A DNA stretch of 64,000 nucleotides from Gigantopelta aegis (taxonomy: Eukaryota > Mollusca > Gastropoda > Neomphalida > Peltospiridae), in the NCBI RefSeq assembly GCF_016097555.1, contig NC_054701.1:3865688-3929687 (forward strand), written 5' to 3'. A program made the position numbers and the translations under genes. Below are positions 15,113-61,260 of this stretch, piece after piece. A model generated the notes under the pieces. The model was not told the origin of the DNA, made no database searches, and worked only from the letters and a program-made list of their open reading frames with translations. The stretch's first letter is position 1. Each line of letters opens with the position of its first letter.

Positions 15113-15228
15113 ATGCATAAAAAGAATGCTCTTTAATTCAGCCATATGTATGGGGCCTACAAATTAGGCATCCCTCTTACGTGCATCAAACAGTGGGCAG
15201 ACGACATGTATGTATGTAGGGGCGGGAC

Positions 15229-15942
15229 TAGCCCGAGTACTCTGACTGTGACAGCACCCACATTCAGCTACGCTTCGTGACACTCCGTCGCAACAATTGC
15301 AAAGCTCGGCGATCTATTTCGAGACGTAGACCACGTGATCGCGCACTAGGTGATTCCGCCTTGTGCAGCAGTTACAGGGGCCGTCTCATATCAAGCTAAG
15401 TTACAACATGGAAGAGTTGGCTAATGCCGTTTTGGATGAATTTGGATTTCATTACGTCATTAAACCAAAACAATTACACATTATTGATTCCATTTTGAAT
15501 TTGAAGGATACATTTGAGGTGTTATCGACAAGATACGGCAAAAGTATGTGCTACGTACTGCCTCCTCTTATGAGATGACCCCTGTAACTGCAGCACAAGG
15601 CGGAATCGCCCAGTCTCGAAATAGATCGCCGAGCTTTGCAATTGTTGCGACGGAGTGTCACGAAGCGTAGCTGAATGTGGGTGCTGTCGGGTTTCTTTCT
15701 GTAGTATGTGTATTAGTGATTAATATGTGGATTTTTTTGTATCACTTAACTCGAATATGATTGATGTAAAGGTATTTGACGTCAAACATAGGATTGTTGT
15801 GGTATTAGAGCGGGACTCGTTGCCTACCGTTTGGTAGTCAGGAATTGCCAAAAAAAGACATAGGTTGGTCTCTGACTGTAATGAGAGCGTGTTTATGTTT
15901 AAATGTCCCTCTAGCTCTCTTACAGTCAGAGTACTCGGGCTA
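15229..15942. mobile_element. TIR element with 9-bp target duplication (Mutator-like), carrying a RecQ fragment
   Basis: The ends TAGCCCGAGTACTCTGAC and GTCAGAGTACTCGGGCTA are inverted. Both are flanked by GGGCGGGAC (15220-15228 and 15943-15951), a perfect 9-bp duplication of the start of a SINE. Long inverted arms follow: 15248-15393 pairs with about 15567-15695. The right arm has about 230 bp (15696-15925) absent from the left arm. Nine-bp duplications and long arms fit Mutator-like elements. No transposase is present. The centre holds the first codons of a RecQ-like helicase, so the element resembles a Pack-MULE or an internally deleted helicase-bearing transposon. Confidence 0.7.
15408..15578 (+). 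pseudogene. RecQ-type helicase N-terminal fragment
   Basis: From the Met at 15408 the frame gives 56 residues ending in TGA. It begins with a RecQ-like lead-in (FGFHYVIKPKQ, IIDSILNLKDT) and ends with a Walker A-like motif RYGKSMCYVLPPL, in place of the usual TGxGKSxCYQLP. RecQ enzymes are 3'-5' DNA helicases; only motif 0 and motif I are present here. The frame runs directly into the right inverted arm, so the remainder is missing rather than spliced away as far as I can see. Confidence 0.6.
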
Positions 15943-16216
15943 GGGCGGGACGTACCCCAGTGGTAAAGCGCTCGCTTGATGCGCAGTCGGTTTGGAATCG
16001 GTCCCCGTTGGTGGGCCCATTAGGCTATTTCTCGTTCCAGCCACAAGCCTTACACTGTGGTTTTACATAAATATATATAAATAATATTTTCATATACTTA
16101 CCATTTGTGACACCCAATAGCGGATGTATATTTTTGACCTGGGGTGTCGTTAAACATTCATTCATTCATTCGTTCGTTCCAGCCAGTGCACCACAACTGT
16201 ATATCAAAGGCAGTGG
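15943..16216 (+). mobile_element. tRNA-derived SINE, family A, with two nested insertions
   Basis: Box A-like CCAGTGGTAAAGCGCT and box B-like GGTTTGGAATCGGTCCC head, then GTGGGCCCATTAGGCTATTT. The body resumes at 16186 with GTGCACCACAACTGTATATC and fades at about 16216 into GTAGGTAGGTAG. Its first 9 bases are duplicated left of the RecQ-carrying element, and a LINE tail splits it at 16044. The same family is present in full on the minus strand at 23738-24060. Confidence 0.8.
16044..16173 (+). mobile_element. LINE 3'-end insertion with 12-bp target duplication
   Basis: 130 bp matching the 3' end of the I-type LINE at 9-11 kb (CTTACACTGTGGTTTTACAT, GTGACACCCAATAGCGG, GGTGTCGTTAAACA), ending in ATTC repeats. 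TCGTTCCAGCCA flanks it on both sides (16032-16043 and 16174-16185). The flanks are contiguous SINE sequence, so this is an extreme 5'-truncated LINE copy inserted into the SINE by target-primed reverse transcription. Confidence 0.85.
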
Positions 16217-22702: not shown

Positions 22703-23206
22703 GCAGCACACAGTTGTAAGGTTTTCACATACCCTGTATAAGATATTTGGTGGATTCAGCGTTGGCAGGTAATGTGATCACTAAACGCAGCACACAGTTG
22801 TAAGGTTTTCACATACCCTGTATAAGATATTTGGTGGATTCAGCGTTGGCAGGTAATGTGATCACTAAACGCAGCACACAGTTGTAAGGTTTTCACATAC
22901 CCTGTATAAGATATTTGATGTATTCAGCATTGGCAGGTAATGTGATCACTAAACGCAGAACACAGTTGTAAGGTTTTCACATACCCTGTATAAGATATTT
23001 GATGTATTCAGCATTGGCAGGTAATGTGATCACTAAACGCAGCACACAGTTGTAAGGTTTTCACATACCCTGTATAAGATATTTGATGTATTCAGCATTG
23101 GCAGGTAATGTGATCACTAAACGCAGAACACAGTTGTAAGGTTTTCACATACCCTGTATAAGATATTTGATGTATTCAGCGTTGGCATTTGATGTGATCA
23201 CTAAAC
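22703..23206. repeat. 84-bp satellite, six copies
   Basis: Exactly six 84-bp units, each starting GCAG[C/A]ACACAGTTGTAAGG and ending GTGATCACTAAAC. Units 1-2 share TTTGGTGGATTCAGCG; units 3-5 share TTTGATGTATTCAGCA. Units 4 and 6 begin GCAGAAC while 3 and 5 begin GCAGCAC, so 3-4 and 5-6 look like a duplicated dimer. The last unit diverges at its end (GCATTTGATG). Confidence 0.97.
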
Positions 23207-23737
23207 GGTGGGGTGGGTCTCGGTGGATTTACCTTGGTGATACAGGAGTAATCGATGCTGAGTGAATTTGTATGGGCCTACAAAAAAATCTTACTAAGTA
23301 TTGTACAGGTATGTTGTCTTCATTGCTTGAGAAGGGGCGAGATCCAGCTCATTGGAAATGGTAATCCCATGTCGTTCTTTGGTCGTAGGATCAAACGACC
23401 TCAGTGAACATATCCTCTCATTGGGCTTTTCCACTCAGGCAGCCATAGCCCCACAATTGGTATGCCAAATGCCATGGTATTTTAGATAAAAATTAAAACA
23501 ATGTAGTTTAAGATTGTTTTCAATGCCTTTTTGTCAGTGCTTCTGTTGTCATTCGGACAGTGTCACGCGTGTTACCGCATTTTACGTGTGTTACCACCAA
23601 CTTACTCAGATTTCAGGGACACTACGACTAATTATTCTTTATTTTAGGCTGGTACAGGTAGACTAACTTTTTATCTATTAACATACTTTAACATCAACTT
23701 GTTATCAGTGTATACTTCACAGTTTTTGAATGATAAA
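23207..23737. other. No gene seen
   Basis: Unique-looking sequence between the satellite and the SINE, including two similar phrases (GTGTTACCGCATTTTACGTG and GTGTTACCACC) near 23570-23605. Confidence 0.5.
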
Positions 23738-24060
23738 ATTTGTTTTGTTTAACGACACCTCTGAAGCACATTGATTAATTAATCATCGACTATTGGATGT
23801 CAAACATTTGGTAATTCTGACACTAAGTCATTATAGGAAACCTGCAACATTTTTCCTAAGGCAGCAAGAGATCTTTTATATGTACCATATCACAGACCAG
23901 GGATATGACAGCACATAGAACGGCCTTTGATATACCAGCCGTGGTGCACTGGCTCGAACGACAAATAGCTCAATGGGCCCACCGACGGGGATCGTTCTCA
24001 AACCGACCGTGCATCAAGCGAGTGCTTTACCACTGGGTTATGTCCAGCCCAGTTTCTGAA
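23738..24060 (-). mobile_element. Near-complete tRNA-derived SINE, family A, minus strand
   Basis: Read on the minus strand: tRNA-like head (ACCCAGTGGTAAAGCACTCG, then GGTCGGTTTGAGAACGATCC), the body GTGGGCCCATTGAGCTATTT, CAGTGCACCACGGCTGG and ATATAAAAGATCTCTTGCTG, and a tail TGACATCCAATAGTCGATG then GAGGTGTCGTTAAACAAAAC. It is about 323 bp long. The tail matches the 3' end of the LINE at 9-11 kb, the expected arrangement when a SINE borrows LINE machinery. Confidence 0.88.
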
Positions 24061-44823: not shown

Positions 44824-45945
44824 TTATGCAAGTAATCCCACAATGCAATTTCTAAAGTTGTTAATGCTGAAACAGATGAACATGATTCTTTCCCCCATGA
44901 CAACTTTAGTATGTGACAAGTCTCTTTTTAAAATTTTGAAAGTTTTGCCAAGGCCGACCACACGTTCTATGTGGATTCGCTTTGATGCAATTCTTCTGTC
45001 GTGAACTACTTCCACAGGTTCCAGCTGCGATTTCCCTTTTAGCATGGTAGGTGTATTTACAAAGACATCTTTTGCTGCGAATAAGTCTTGAACCATGATT
45101 CCACGATCTGCCATTATACTATCCTTTTTTTTTTAAAAACTGATCAGTGTTTGTACATAATTCACTTCGCTCAATAATTTGACGGTCACTTGCTGCACCT
45201 CCATAGCTACTGCTGACATACGAAATTAAACCACGTGGTGTACAACCAATCATGGTTTTCAGTGTGTTCTTGTTTTTGTATATAGAAAAGGTTGCACTCT
45301 GTGCCTGAACATTGGATGGCTTCTGGATAGGTATTTCTGTGGCATCCAGTATCACTCGAGTTGACGGAAACTGTTTCTTAAAATCCTCTGGCATTGTATC
45401 CTCTGTAACCTTCTTTGACGGCCATGTTTTAATTTCTTTTAGCTGAAAGTATAGAAAGTTCACCCAAGTGTTGACAATCTGGGTAACAACTGACTGGCTT
45501 ACACCAAACAAAATGGACAGCTCAATATCATCTTTAGCCTCTCTCAATTTCATCAGTGTTAAGAAAAGCTGATCTTTTGGTGATAGCATACTGCACTTAT
45601 AATCCAAGTAGTCAACAACTGGACCAAGAATATTGAAAAATAGCATAAAATGTTCATAGTTGTCGAAGCTTGTATAATACTGAACAGCCTGTGGATGGAA
45701 CATGTATTTTTCAATCGAAAAGTTATCGGACATCAAATTACACTGAATGGCACTTTCTTCAAAAGTACAAGTTATTTTTTCTCACTTTCCTTGGCTACTT
45801 TGGGGGTTCAGTGCTTACAACAATTTCTTCATTGCCAATGTTATTCAAATTAATCTCTTGCAGTGCCCTATGGTCAGGGCCACGTGATCTCCTCCTTTTT
45901 GCAGAAGGGCTTGCTTCACAGGTGAAAACTAAATATTGATGGCAC
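44824..45945 (-). pseudogene. DDE transposase (ISL2EU/Harbinger-like), copy 1
   Basis: Main exon from 45736 down to 44824, with a likely upstream exon at about 45945-45780 (SPSAKRRRSRGPDH). Order: FSIEKYMFHPQAVQYYTSF helical lead; a helix-turn-helix-like FGVSQSVVTQIVNTW; first catalytic Asp in RVILDATEIPI; second in GGAASDRQIIERS; Glu in RIHIERVVGLGKTFKIL. These are the DDE_Tnp_4-type blocks. The frame changes in a run of ten A on the minus strand (about 45124-45133), between NTDQFLKKK and DSIMADRGI. It converges on the YqaJ gene, the expected partner of ISL2EU elements. No THAP or other N-terminal zinc finger is visible. Confidence 0.75.
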
Positions 45946-47772: not shown

Positions 47773-48894
47773 TTATGCAAGTAATCCCACAATGCAATTT
47801 CTAAAGTTGTTAATGCTGAAACAGATGAACATGATTCTTTCCCCCATGACAACTTTAGTATGTGACAAGTCTCTTTTTAAAATTTTGAAAGTTTTGCCAA
47901 GGCCGACCACACGTTCTATGTGGATTCGCTTTGATGCAATTCTTCTGTCGTGAACTACTTCCACAGGTTCCAGCTGCGATTTCCCTTTTAGCATGGTAGG
48001 TGTATTTACAAAGACATCTTTTGCTGCGAATAAGTCTTGAACCATGATTCCACGATCTGCCATTATACTATCCTTTTTTTTTTAAAACTGATCAGTGTTT
48101 GTACATAATTCACTTCGCTCAATAATTTGACGGTCACTTGCTGCACCTCCATAGCTACTGCTGACATACGAAATTAAACCACGTGGTGTACAACCAATCA
48201 TGGTTTTCAGTGTGTTCTTGTTTTTGTATATAGAAAAGGTTGCACTCTGTGCCTGAACATTGGATGGCTTCTGGATAGGTATTTCTGTGGCATCCAGTAT
48301 CACTCGAGTTGACGGAAACTGTTTCTTAAAATCCTCTGGCATTGTATCCTCTGTAACCTTCTTTGACGGCCATGTTTTAATTTCTTTTAGCTGAAAGTAT
48401 AGAAAGTTCACCCAAGTGTTGACAATCTGGGTAACAACTGACTGGCTTACACCAAACAAAATGGACAGCTCAATATCATCTTTAGCCTCTCTCAATTTCA
48501 TCAGTGTTAAGAAAAGCTGATCTTTTGGTGATAGCATACTGCACTTATAATCCAAGTAGTCAACAACTGGACCAAGAATATTGAAAAATAGCATAAAATG
48601 TTCATAGTTGTCGAAGCTTGTATAATACTGAACAGCCTGTGGATGGAACATGTATTTTTCAATCGAAAAGTTATCGGACATCAAATTACACTGAATGGCA
48701 CTTTCTTCAAAAGTACAAGTTATTTTTTCTCACTTTCCTTGGCTACTTTGGGGGTTCAGTGCTTACAACAATTTCTTCATTGCCAATGTTATTCAAATTA
48801 ATCTCTTGCAGTGCCCTATGGTCAGGGCCACGTGATCTCCTCCTTTTTGCAGAAGGGCTTGCTTCACAGGTGAAACTAAATATTGATGGCACAG
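47773..48894 (-). pseudogene. DDE transposase (ISL2EU/Harbinger-like), copy 2
   Basis: Almost identical protein to copy 1 from MMSDNFSIEKY (48684) through the three catalytic blocks to the end at 47773. Here the T/A run has one T less than copy 1 (T4A10 against T5A10 on the minus strand). The overall frame is therefore kept, but a TAA appears after NTDQF. The two copies thus differ just at the site that decides whether the protein is whole. Sequencing error in the homopolymer, real decay, or slippage are all possible. Confidence 0.75.
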
Positions 48895-51865: not shown

Positions 51866-52960
51866 TTAAACATGTCCGAAGTGTGAAACGATGGCAGTCG
51901 GACGGAAAAGAGGTCGACCCCTTTCCGTTGCCCTGCGCACAGACACGACGTGTTGAGCCGCAATGACTGTCTGGATCCTACGCGTACCGTCAGGACCAAC
52001 CGCCATATCCCGGAAATAGAAACGGTCAAAAGTGTGCCGTCCTTTCCAAACCCCTGCATTCATGACCTTTATAATACTTAAAGAGTCATGAAAATTCAGG
52101 GAAGCAGAAATGGCTCGGATCTCATGTGGTTTAACAGAGAAATTCCGTAACACATGATCACCCGCCATCTCATATGCTAGCTTGATGGTAGCTGCTATCC
52201 ATCGAGACAAAGCATTTTTTGTGACATCACCCGGCCTAATGGTATAAGAAATAAACAATCTCTTTTTACCCTGCCGCCGGTTTTTCGTACGCTGCAAATA
52301 ATACTTCAATGCTCTCACCGGGCAAAGAAGTCTATCCGAGTTATCAGATGACAGTGTACGAGATAAACTGTGAATGACAGTAGGTGGAAACTCTTCCCCT
52401 GGAGACTGGTTTTTAGCAACAAAGATAGGGTCGGTACGTAAAGTGACAGACCCGTCCGAATTGTAATCAACCAAGTCATGCAAAAAAGCATGTATCTCAC
52501 TGATCCGACGACAAGCTGCCAGTGAAACCAGAAACAGAGTCTTCCACGTCAAGGCACGAAGACTAGCAAACCTCAACGGCTCATAAGGCGCACCCTTAAG
52601 AGCATGCAACACCAGAAAGACATTCCATTTCGGAATAATGGAAGGTCGTTCAACCGTGGATTTGTAATGATTTAAGTAAATCATGCAACACCAAGTTGGT
52701 AGAAAAGTCACGACATCCACACTGTTTAAGAGTAGTGAAAATCGCAGCTCTGTGACTTTTCACTGTCATGACTTTAAGTTTCCTTTCTTGGACCAACGCC
52801 AGAAAGTACTCCGCTAAATCGTTGACAGTAGGCGATAAGGGATCGAAATCCCGTGCGTTCGCCCAACGAACCCACATACGCCAGTGACACTGATAAACCG
52901 ACTCGGTAGATTTGCGCTTTGCTGAAGAGACGAGATGCGCAATTCTTGTCGAAAAACCTC
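51866..52960 (-). mobile_element. DIRS-like element: tyrosine recombinase
   Basis: Third coding part. An N-terminal SAM-like domain (VYQCHWRMWVRWANA, TVNDLAEYFLAL) precedes the catalytic domain with SLAACRRISEIHAF (catalytic Arg), the H-x-x-R-type VKPHEIRAISAS, VWKGRHTFDRFYFRDMA with the later His/Trp position and the probable Tyr nucleophile. It substitutes for integrase in DIRS elements. Confidence 0.8.
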
Positions 52961-54903
52961 TGCGTCGCAAGGAAGCCCTGATAACCTCCACGCGTGAAAC
53001 CGGAAGACCTCCGGCTTCGGATGCCACACCGTCTGACTCAGTCGCTGGCTGAGTAGATCGGACAACACTGGTAATCGGAACGGGACTGCCACTAACAGTG
53101 ACAGGAGCTGTGGAAACCAGGGCTGCGCCACCCACAGAGGAGCTATCAACGTCACGTGACAAGGTTCCTGGACCACTTTGGTCAACACCTTGCCGAGTAA
53201 GACAGGAGGAGGGAAGGCATAAAAATCCAGTCCCGTCCAATCCATACTTAACGCGTCGTACTCCAACGCCAATGTGTCCGGTACCGGGGACACGAACACC
53301 GGCAATTGGTTGTTCAACCGTGTGGCAAACATGTCCACCTGTGGACTGCCCCACACCCGAAGAACCGCTGCGACCACCCCTTTGTTCAACATCCACTCCG
53401 TCTGAACAGGGGTATGTCGACTGAGGGCATCTGCTAACACATTCACCGATGAAGGAATGTGTTTCGCCCACAGAGTGGTCCCTAGTTGGTCGCAGAATTC
53501 CAAAATCGCAAGAGCTTTGCGACCCAAAGTCTCCGATTTGGTTCCACCCCAACGATTGAGATATGCCACTACCGACGTATTGTCGCATCTCAACAGAATT
53601 CGACGGTGTCGAAGAACACACCGGAAATGAAGACAGGCACGATGCACTGCCTCCATCTCCAAACAGTTGATATGAAGCTTCCTCTCGGAGAGATTCCATA
53701 CCCCTGAAATGTGTTGATCCAACAGATGCGCCCCGTACCCGTGCAGCGACGCATCCGTGAACAGGATCAGATCCGGAGCAGGGGGGTGCAACGGAACCGA
53801 TAGGGACATGCACTTGTCCGACAGGCACTCCTGTATCGGATGAGTGAACCATGGGCCCAGAGGCACTATCGTGTCCCAATTGTGACCGTCCCACCGTGGG
53901 GACAAATGCCACTGGAGTGGTCGTTTGAATCGTCTGAACCGCACGATCAATGAGGCCAGAGATTCGAGGTGGCCCAACACCACGTGGAGAGATCGTACCG
54001 TAGTACTTTGCTCCCCCATCAAACGTCGCGCCGACGTTTGGAAATTGTGGATACGCGCATCGGTGGGACGAACCGACGCTACCACAAGATCGAAGACCAC
54101 TCCGAGATATGTGAAAATCTGAGCCGGCGTTAACTCCGATTTCACCCAATTGGGAATAATAAACCCAATTGGAGGATCGTGTCCAAAACCAACCCGACAT
54201 TGGTCTGACACTCCTGTTGCGACGAAGCTGGGATCAACCAATCGTCCAGATAGGTATGCATTCGAACCCCTAACAAATGAACATGACCTACCACCGCTTT
54301 TACCACACGTGTAAAAGCATGGGGACTCGTCGCCAAACCGAACGGGAGCACACGAAACTCGTACGCTTTCCCGTCGAACAGGAAGCGCAGAAACTTCCAA
54401 AACGCCTTGTGCACCGGGACATGGAGGTATGCGTCTTTCAGATCGATCGACACAGCCCACTCCCCAATTTGAAGCAGGTTCCGGACCGAATGAACCGTTT
54501 CCATTTTCATGGAAGGAACATCGACGTAGACGTTCAGTGGCTTCAAATTTAGGATTGGTCTCCATTCCCCATTTTTCTTCCGGGCGAAGAAAAGATGAGA
54601 ATAAAATCCCGGAGTGTCCAGACTGACTCTCTGGATGGCCCCTTTGTCGAGAAACTCGGAATCATACTCTCCACTAAAACGCGCCGATCCGCGGACGGTA
54701 ACGGCGGCATTCTCGGAGTGGAAGTAAGAGGGGGGCTCGAAGAAAAGGGTATTTTGTAACCGTGTCGAACGACCGACAGAACCCAGGGGTCGAGACCAGG
54801 CAGCTTGCACCAATTTCGAAGGAAATGGCGGAGCCTGCCCCCCACGGGTATGGTTGCTAACGGTACCTCCGAAAGCAACTGCCGATCGTTCACGTACCCT
54901 CAC
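52814..54903 (-). mobile_element. DIRS-like element: reverse transcriptase and RNase H
   Basis: Second coding part. RT blocks include NLKPLNVYV, SIDLKDAYLHVPV, LPFGLATSPHAFTRV and the active-site YLDDW. RNase H shows LFTDASLHGYGAHL, HINCLEMEAV, LLRCDNTSVVAYLN and VLADALSRH. A segment resembling QVDMFATRLNNQLPVFVSP follows, as in other DIRS polymerases. The order RT then RNase H, without integrase, is diagnostic for the group. Confidence 0.85.
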
Positions 54904-57234
54904 CCCAACCGCTTACCACCCGTAGGCGCAACGCCTTTGGTGGACTGAGAACGGAACGCAGTACGACGTTTGCGTCCTCGCTTAGCGGAAGACGGGTTGT
55001 TACCTGGTTGCCTCCTAGTGTCAGGAACCCTAGGGATCTGAGCCGACTGTAAAAAAGCAGCCTTTTTTACAGGAGGAGGCTTGAACCCCGAAAACGTGGA
55101 CCGACGTTTACCAGAGGTTGAGGGTCGAGTGTTCGGGACTGGTCGCGACAAATCCTTGTCTAGGACAATATTAAAATCGGGACCGAAAAGTAAATTTTCC
55201 CGTACCGAACGTGTACGAAAAAACGTCTTCGCAACGTTTGACGCACTCAAACCCGCCAGGTAATGGTCACGCCGTAACAAAAGACTGTTCGCAAACAATC
55301 GGCCAGATAACTGAGCGATATGCTTAGAGGCTTTTGACGCAGCCTCCAAACAGCCTTTCGCCATCGCGGGAAGGCTCTCGACAGCCTTATCCAAGCCAAA
55401 TAGGAACGTACCTAAATGGTTATTAACCTGGAACATCGACTTAGCCAGCCGTTCGAACGATTCCAGATCCGCGATTGGCAATGACACATGCGGCGATGGG
55501 GAACAAGCGGCTCGGACACTAGCGGGAACGACCGCCGGATGTTCGAGAAAATCCGCCCCCAACGTCTCATAGGAGTCGGCACGAAAAATGCGCGCTCCCG
55601 TTAGGATTTTCCCCGTAGGCAGTGCCGTTGGGTACTCATCAACACCCACTCCCAGGATACGATCACTGCCAGTGATCAACACATCAATGTCACAAAGTGA
55701 ACTGTGCGCCTCCTGTGCAAGTGGTAAACCCGACTCCTCACGAGGAGTGACCAAATTCAAAGAACGGTTCCCGAAGGAGACACCCTTGAATGTAGGCTGG
55801 GCCTCAACCTGAGGTATAGCGTCCCCGCATACCTGTCGGACCTGGTCCCTGACAAAAGCCAGAACCGCCGGATAATCGCACTCCTCCTCTACCTCCGAAC
55901 CGAAGTGAGAGAGAGCTGGGTCAGCGACAGAATCCGGTCCAACCGACGCTTCCTCTGAAGCCAGGTCACTGTCCACTGGATCCCGAAGATCGATATGGAC
56001 TCCTCCCCCTAATCGAGACGCCCCTGGGGCAGCGTCTCCCGAGACGGAAACAATAGGAACCGAACGACAATCCCTAACTGCATCGTCAAACTGCTGTCGA
56101 GACGCAGTTTCTGCTGGTTTTGGCGGAAAACCAGGGGGGGGGGGGGGAATGGGAGCCGCACCCGTCGGTCCCGTCTGCGAAAGCAATGATCCCAACTGAG
56201 GCGAAGCGTTCAAAAATTCCACAAAACTCCGAAACAAACGTTTCCTGAAAACCTAACGGTCGTTCCTGCACCAAGTGCGGAACGGTCGGAGTTTGCGGCC
56301 ACAGAGTACCCCCAACCGAGGGGTATCTGCGCGAACCTCGTCCTCTATCGAGTAAAGTCGAAGAGGTAGGGACCAAAGACGGTGCAAACTGTGAGGAGAT
56401 GTCCGTTGCTACCGAAGTCACCGGACCCTTGGGGTAAACATATGCAAACGGAGGACCCAAACGGGATGAGTCCTCCACCCAACGGTAAACATCGGTCGGG
56501 ATGCCATCAGAGACGGATCCCGGCATCGGAACAACTGGCTCAGTTCGAAGCAAACTGGCAGAACTCTCCTCGGGCCTTGAGAATGCTGAGGTGCCGAAGC
56601 GACTGTCAGCAATCGAAGGCAAAGTCGGGGCCACCTGCTCTGCGGACGAAGCAGTGGACCTATGCACAACGGAGTGCATGTGCTCGGTAACCGATGAAGT
56701 CGTCAAAACCGGTGCCGCGACGACTCCACCCTGCCCCCCTTCTGTTTGTAAAGGTAACCGTAACGACGATGGCGACGCCCGCGACGAAGCCACACAAACA
56801 GAGGAAGGCGCCGTCACTAACGAAGACGGCTCACGTACCACGGTCACAATAGGAGCCCGGGGGGGCACTCCCGAAGTATCTGTAACTGTACTCGTAACAC
56901 GGACCGAAGAAGAAACACCCTTGTGTTTCCCCCCTTTCCGGACACTTTTCGAAGTGTCTACAGACTTATGGGACCTACCCACTAAGTCCGACTTGCCGAC
57001 TACTGCCGAAGCAGACGACAAGATTTTGCTGGTACCCGAAACCTGAGTCTGCGAACCGAACCGACCCCACTGGTCAGGAGACCACGTGGCGCAGATCTCA
57101 CACTGACGGTCTTGAGAACAAGACCGACAGTCCGGACACAACACGTGTGTGTCTTTACGTCGTAAAAGAAATGGACAACCATCTCGCGCACAAACTTTCC
57201 GTGCGCTAGCTGTCAACGAACTCGCGTCGGACAT
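54900..57234 (-). mobile_element. DIRS-like element: Gag-like ORF region
   Basis: First coding part of the DIRS-like element. The N-terminus has Cys-rich pairs (CARDGCPF, LCPDCRSC, CEIC) that may bind zinc, then Ser/Val/Pro-rich disordered sequence, then a helical half with SFERLAKSMFQVNNHLGTFL and a basic end. DIRS ORF1 products are thought to serve as nucleocapsid-like proteins. Confidence 0.65.
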
Positions 57235-60159: not shown

Positions 60160-61260
60160 GGAGTTTTGTTTGTTTTGTTTCTTTGCTTAATTCGTTTTAC
60201 TTTATTTTAATTTATTAAAAGAACCCCCACAAAAGCATACCATAAAGCATCGGTAACATGTGACAATCTTGAAAGCAATATCAAAAATTAACCGCCGGAC
60301 GCTGACGCTGCCATCTTTGTTTACAATAACAAGGGAATCTATAAGGAGCGTTGCGATTCGTTGCAATCAGATCTCATCGCATCCAATGAAATTTAAGCAT
60401 TTTGTGGCACGATTTCTTGACGACATGTATCAAGGCTGAATACGAGGAACGAATATTAGCCTTGATTTATGAAGATGGCTAAGCTTCGACAAACTCCGGA
60501 CAGCAGAATTCTAAGTTCGCCGACTTATATCGTGACGTTGCATCACATGATCGCCCACTCAGCCATTCCGTCTACTGGGCGAAATAGGTCACCGAGCTTT
60601 GTAATTCTTGCGACGGAGTGTCACGAAGCGTAGCTGAATGTGGGTGCTGTCGGATTTCTGTCTGTACTATGTGTATTAGTGATTAATATGTGAATTTTTT
60701 AATCAGTTAACTCGAAAATGATCGATGTAAAGGTATTTGACGTCAAACATAGGATTGTTGTGGAAATCTTTGCCAACTTTTTGGTTGTCGGGAATTGCCA
60801 AAAAAATACATAGCTTGGTCTCCGACTGTAATGAGAGCGTATTTATGTCCAAATGTCCGTCTAGCTCTCTTACAGTCAAAGTACTCGGGCTAGCATTTCA
60901 GCTGCTGTGAAGCCGAAATACGGTATGTCAGGAATATGACCTACTAAAGTGTTATTTCTTGACCGGCAAGTGAATAAACTATCGATTTCAAGAAGTCTTA
61001 TGACATGGAATATATATTCACACTTTTTGTTATATATTTTGTGTTGTTGCCTAAGTTACCAATATAATATTACCGGAACTTGCAACCCATGTGCTTCTTT
61101 TCTGTTACTGGTTTCTGTTTTGGCCGACGTACAGTCACTTACCTCAAAATTATTATTTTCAAAAGCAGTTTGCTTTCTGTTACTTAAGTATACATTTTCC
61201 ACATTCAAATGCTGAAGTTTGTAGGGTACATTTAGGAATCCTGCAACTTTCATTCTCACT
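60160..61260 (-). repeat. Dispersed repeat D, inverted copy, interrupted
   Basis: Reverse complement of the repeat at 34985-35600: 60165-60290 matches its far end and 60894-61250 its near end. In between lies sequence of the RecQ-carrying TIR family, inserted at CATTTCAGCTGCTG. Confidence 0.7.
60490..60893. mobile_element. Second member of the RecQ-type TIR family, without helicase piece
   Basis: GGAGTGTCACGAAGCGTAGC, GAATGTGGGTGCTGTCGG and the terminal AGTACTCGGGCTAG match the right arm at 15600-15942. A weaker match to the left arm (ATCACATGATCGCCCACT, near 60545) directly precedes it, so the centre with the helicase start is gone. The left end is not resolved. Confidence 0.65.

Follow-up and report, generated by a model that had tools for sequence, protein, structure and literature searches.

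A short DNA transposon that carries the beginning of a RecQ helicase gene is found in a 64,000-nt stretch of the Gigantopelta aegis genome (NC_054701.1, positions 3,865,688-3,929,687; hereafter the window, in whose numbering plain coordinates are given). The element occupies positions 15229-15942, is 714 bp long, ends in terminal inverted repeats (TIRs) and is flanked by a perfect 9-bp duplication. It is, with a probability of about 0.9, a non-autonomous internal deletion derivative, of the kind known as a long-TIR miniature inverted-repeat transposable element (MITE), of a DNA transposon, most likely AcademH-like, that would have encoded both a RecQ helicase and a DUF6589 protein. The RecQ fragment is most likely a leftover of the transposon's own gene rather than a piece of a host gene.

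The element in the window

Both ends of the element read TAGCCCGAGTACTCTGAC inwards, and the 18-bp ends match. Three pairs of inverted arms are present: 15250-15325 with 15613-15688 (76 nt, 100% identical), 15345-15390 with 15569-15614 (46 nt, 89%) and 15228-15254 with 15917-15943 (27 nt, 93%). An earlier note, made from the letters of this DNA, had described a TIR element with long arms and a perfect 9-bp duplication, and the sequence together with its inverted repeats confirms that description. The outer 30 bp of the TIR occur exactly 2493 times (1134 + 1359) in the genome searched (1.15 Gb in 5216 contigs), with 0 and 0 occurrences of the reversed control patterns, and the element is therefore not a chance arrangement.

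The 56-codon open reading frame (ORF) between the arms (Table 1) has its last codon and stop at a deletion joint. Its translation matches the NCBIfam profile recQ_fam (TIGR00614) at an E value of 3.8e-10 and the RecQ structure 4tmu in the PDB at 2.3e-6, in agreement with the earlier reading of a RecQ-like piece that ends just after Walker A; the match to Pfam DEAD (E 1.4e-5, 25.4 bits) falls slightly below the 26-bit cut-off. In this copy Walker A is mutated from G to R, reading LSTRYGKS as against LSTGYGKS in the family majority, and its 56-residue peptide cannot be a functional helicase.

A family of 947-bp elements

The window element belongs to a non-autonomous family of 947-bp elements, from which it differs by a deletion in an arm. 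Aligned to an intact 947-bp copy, it is without family positions 22-254, which amount to 233 bp of the left arm. Its right arm is also short of a 21-nt segment that its left arm retains, as do the right arms of three longer sequences (L078, L079 and L080, described below). When the genome was searched with the element, 40 of 1618 candidates were scored, and nearly all of these 40 were about 98% identical to it. Both ends were present at 32 of the 38 copy loci examined, 31 of these being distinct, and most copies measured 947 bp. Perfect duplications of 9 or 10 bp, varied in sequence, flank 29 of the 31 distinct copies, and the other two match at 8 of 9 positions. Divergence from the majority sequence averages 0.68% among 24 near-full copies; this figure is a lower bound on age, because the copies were chosen for similarity and are biased toward young ones.

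Two further arrangements of the TIR were noted. At three or more sites, C1:24125315-24125429, C1:15081141-15081255 and C2:2510329-2510443 among them, two outer TIRs face each other at a distance of 115 bp, possibly an ultra-short derivative. The list of outer-TIR matches also contains a candidate 17-kb pair at C1:10454445-10471514.

Longer members and the deletion joint

Among the first 100 of the 2493 TIR places, pairs spaced 2.2 kb apart recur on C1. One longer member, L078, measures 2228 bp and has a perfect 9-bp duplication; another, L079, measures 5545 bp and sits inside the TIR of another copy. Both have the TIRs and the RecQ exon of the 947-bp family. The TIRs are about 420 bp long and 99% identical in L079 (419 and 425 aligned columns) and 402 bp long in L078. 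In each, RecQ exon 1 runs beyond the point at which the MITE breaks off and continues through PPLMKDK to a splice donor, GTAAGT, and L079 also holds a later RecQ exon. Other copies thus carry RecQ sequence between these arms, and the piece itself matches RecQ, the opposite of what the earlier note had named as evidence against its view.

The undeleted boundary between RecQ exon 1 and its intron has 72 exact copies in the genome, and the deletion joint of the MITE has 181; the control for each gave 0. The undeleted parental sequence reads TTATGAAAG. A 5-bp microhomology, TATGA, is common to the RecQ side of the parental sequence (CTCTTATGAAAG), its TIR side (CTTGATATGAGACGG) and the joint of the MITE (CTCTTATGAGACG), while the joint variant of the window copy reads GATGACC. 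Because the exon runs past the breakpoint, TATGA stands at the joint and the 21 nt are kept in the right arms of the longer members, the change went from the long form to the short one.

RecQ and DUF6589 beside a common TIR

A profile search of the genome for DUF6589 (PF20231) gave 36 matches with all 71 candidates scored, and one for RecQ (TIGR00614), in which 41 of 666 candidates were scored, gave 43. Matches to the two lie within 6 kb of each other at five loci, and at four of them (on C6, C7, C8 and C15) RecQ on the plus strand is followed by DUF6589 on the minus strand. The locus at C8:79.62-79.63 Mb, made up of L072 and its direct continuation L080, joins RecQ exons, DUF6589 and the same right TIR. 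Its RecQ exons match recQ_fam at 1.1e-6 and 6.9e-16 and Helicase_C at 8.2e-16; on the opposite strand, convergent with RecQ, lie DUF6589 pieces at 1.1e-10 and 2.1e-9, and in one of these a PHD-like stretch scores below the cut-off. L079 aligns with L072 at 95% identity over 1999 and 341 columns, with L073 at 98.6% over 1036 columns, and with L080 at 98.8% over 1985 columns, the right TIR end included. Judged by these alignments, the C8 locus and L079 are members of the same family. The earlier note had offered a deletion derivative of a RecQ-encoding TIR transposon as one of two options, and these loci, with the longer exon of L078 and L079, support it.

The DUF6589 region is present in three longer copies, on C8, C6 (100% identical) and C15 (93%), and in a 255-bp fragment at 98%; a further match of 114 bp is distant. 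An alignment of three DUF6589 fragment sequences contains one invariant D.

A second RecQ-like N-terminus (MESVYDDI...GSGKSLTYE), about 31% like the piece in the MITE, is also dispersed in the genome (L050 at C6:35.16 Mb, L062 at C10:56.41 Mb and L058/L070 at C13:11.39 Mb). In L070 it lies near a DUF6589 ORF, and the two may perhaps represent another lineage with RecQ and DUF6589. A separate lead from the RecQ search, L069 on C11, was rejected: it holds a 791-residue ORF read as another type of helicase, presumably a DDX23/PRP28-type RNA helicase.

Proposed origin of the family

The parent of the family would have contained two convergent, intron-bearing genes between TIRs of about 420 bp, the RecQ-family gene starting directly inside one TIR and the DUF6589 gene directly inside the other. 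From its place beside the TIR, the DUF6589 protein is presumed to be the transposase, of the DDE type. It would bind the TIR, and the element would be cut out and then inserted with 9-bp staggered joining. The 947-bp form arose when a deletion removed the stretch between RecQ exon 1 and the inner margin of the opposite TIR and left the ends joined at TATGA, probably in the course of interrupted gap repair. The shortened form then multiplied into the hundreds, presumably moved in trans by proteins recognising the common TIR. Since the larger element most likely carried both RecQ and a transposase, the helicase fragment can be understood as a transposon leftover.

Several observations weigh against this account. 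Firstly, the search for full-length members proposed in the earlier note yielded longer RecQ-bearing elements, but no locus was found that holds exon 1, the later RecQ exons, DUF6589 and both TIRs. L072 departs from L079 to the left of L072:1359, where an inverted TIR end occupies L072 1-380, so the full parent had to be pieced together from overlapping parts; their summed coordinates suggest a length of about 13 kb for this unassembled parent. RecQ exon 1 and DUF6589 were never found together: every one of the 72 exact exon-1 boundaries is more than 30 kb away from any of the 36 DUF6589 matches, a count confined to the exact pattern. The fifth locus with RecQ and DUF6589, on C13, differs in layout. 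Secondly, the longer members are imperfect: the duplication of L079 matches at only 8 of 9 positions (CTCTGGCAG and CTCTGACAG), and a 1-nt deletion shifts the frame of the RecQ exon in L078, whose continuation to GTAAGT was read past it. Thirdly, Pfam annotates DUF6589 as a family of unknown function, and the literature search found no paper naming it.

Relation to known transposons with helicases

By its helicase content and the length of its duplications, the family is most likely a new AcademH-like family. A RecQ helicase is reported in Academ transposons (PMC3627910). AcademH elements encode a helicase and have duplications of 9 or 10 bp, and the duplication lengths of Academ lineages have been suggested to relate to their content of helicase or nuclease (PMC10045372). 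According to the title of Kojima 2020 (Mob DNA 11:15), AcademH is present in both animals and fungi. The RecQ genes of Academ (PMC3627910) and KolobokH (PMC9587614) contradict the claim of the earlier note that helicase-bearing transposons use other helicases, and its suggestion of an undescribed kind of transposon is unsupported in view of the helicase and duplications of AcademH (PMC10045372).

The family resembles AcademH in its duplications of 9 or 10 bp (perfect beside L078 as well as in the 29 of 31 copies, and 8 of 9 in L079), in its RecQ-like superfamily 2 helicase (3.8e-10 for exon 1 and down to 6.9e-16 for later exons) and in its TIRs. It differs in consisting chiefly of massively amplified 947-bp MITEs that retain RecQ exon 1. 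Here, in an animal, the short derivatives of a helicase-bearing transposon have reached copy numbers in the hundreds, and DUF6589 is tied to RecQ helicase genes as well as to defined TIRs and 9-bp duplications. Should DUF6589 be the transposase of Academ, an uncharacterised Pfam family gains a function; if it is not, the transposons would represent a new superfamily.

In that second case, transposons with RecQ and DUF6589 would form a separate, undescribed superfamily that recruited RecQ separately from AcademH and KolobokH, and PF20231 would be a family of transposases not recognised so far. The silence of Pfam and of the searched literature on DUF6589 is in keeping with this, as is a survey of molluscs with Academ hidden Markov models, which found Academ nearly confined to bivalves (PMC10294476). 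On this view DNA transposons would have recruited RecQ on three or more occasions, with a burst of long-TIR MITEs in an animal genome, and transposition that leaves long duplications may have a general need for unwinding. A separate superfamily is nevertheless unlikely: AcademH already pairs a helicase with duplications of 9 or 10 bp (PMC10045372), RecQ is reported in Academ (PMC3627910), and since these fit the family, no new superfamily is needed.

Origin and fate of the RecQ fragment

Elements of the MuDR/MULE group and Pack-MULEs have long TIRs and 9-bp duplications, and their non-autonomous members bear gene fragments. The window element looks the same at first sight, with a single short gene piece between long TIRs, and its duplications fall in the range of 4-10 bp given for IS256/MuDR (PMC10045372). 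The other option in the earlier note was accordingly a capture in the style of Pack-MULEs, in which a MULE-type non-autonomous element acquired the 5' end of a RecQ gene from the host and then amplified this fragment. This was rejected and is very improbable, since in L078 and L079 the same exon continues between the same TIRs and on into its intron, and a later exon follows in L079 and L072; the persistence of exon, intron and later exon makes the helicase a part of the transposon body. A comparison with host RecQ genes, which the earlier note had also proposed, gave no close source: the best near-full-length match was 33% over 54 residues among 30 of the 43 RecQ-profile loci, from a search that scored 41 of 666 candidates, and a closer host gene might lie among the remaining ones. 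Unlike a captured host fragment, the piece most likely belongs to the transposon's own helicase gene, and DUF6589 is encoded in the body next to the right TIR. No MULE transposase family was recognised in the scanned pieces, no genome-wide search for MULEs having been made.

It is about as improbable that the 56-residue peptide has been kept for a function, for example interference with the full-length helicase. When the RecQ piece served as a protein query, all 150 scored matches were identical to it over the 56 residues, but this identity was itself selected for, because of 709 candidates just the 150 best were scored. The family is in any case young, at 0.68% divergence in a similarity-biased sample, while Walker A is mutated in the window copy and the frame is shifted in L078.

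Kolobok transposons leave TTAA duplications, as against the 9 bp of varied sequence here, and on this ground kinship with KolobokH was rejected as scarcely credible. KolobokH, another DNA transposon lineage in which RecQ is encoded, is described in PMC9587614 from fungi only, and its RecQ lies downstream of the transposase domain there.

A sister family without RecQ

The earlier note had seen a second member of the family at 60.5-60.9 kb. The right arm there is indeed related, with positions 60580-60892 aligning to the right arm of the element at 89.6% over 326 columns, but it belongs to a sister foldback family without RecQ, and its left end was looked for within the window and not found. A first look gave 3697 candidates for this sister family, of which 40 were scored. 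Two copies examined are 697 and 709 bp long, with duplications matching at 8 of 9 positions.

Other features of the window

Table 1. Features of the TIR element, the repeat it entered and the sister family, in window coordinates.
Feature	Position	Strand	Basis
Left copy of target site duplication, GGGCGGGAC	15220-15228		Sequence
Left TIR arm with internal deletion, family positions 1-21 fused to 255-395	15229-15390	+	Alignment to intact 947-bp copy; inverted repeats
56-codon ORF, RecQ helicase exon 1 from its start to just past Walker A	15408-15578 (including stop)	+	Profile and PDB matches
Right TIR arm, overlapping the end of the ORF at the joint	15569-15942	+	Inverted repeats; alignment to intact 947-bp copy
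Right copy of target site duplication, GGGCGGGAC	15943-15951		Sequence
SINE-like repeat, with the element inserted into its 5' head	15943-16170	+	3' end approximate, by eye
Right half of RecQ-less sister foldback family with common TIR	60478-60892	+	Alignment; left end not found

The repeat that the element entered resembles a short interspersed nuclear element (SINE), and we take it to be a tRNA-SINE. A second, diverged head of this repeat lies at 24018-24050, and the repeats in L069 share its motif.

Other mobile pieces lie elsewhere in the window. On the minus strand at 51866-57234, in a GC-richer stretch at 51-58 kb, ORFs match reverse transcriptase (PF00078, 2.4e-18) and RNase H-like profiles, and a 284-residue ORF has no Pfam match; the layout resembles what we assume to be a DIRS-type tyrosine-recombinase retrotransposon. 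Two near-identical minus-strand ORFs about 3 kb apart, at 45119-45736 and 48082-48684, have their first 200 residues in common. The former matches DDE_Tnp_4 (3.2e-19) and HTH_Tnp_4, and the pair is a duplicated piece of a transposase. A plus-strand ORF of 310 residues at 63053-63985 matches DDE_3 (4e-15) and is presumably Tc1/mariner-like. A tandem repeat at 22703-23207 consists of six copies of an 84-bp unit with 97% matches.
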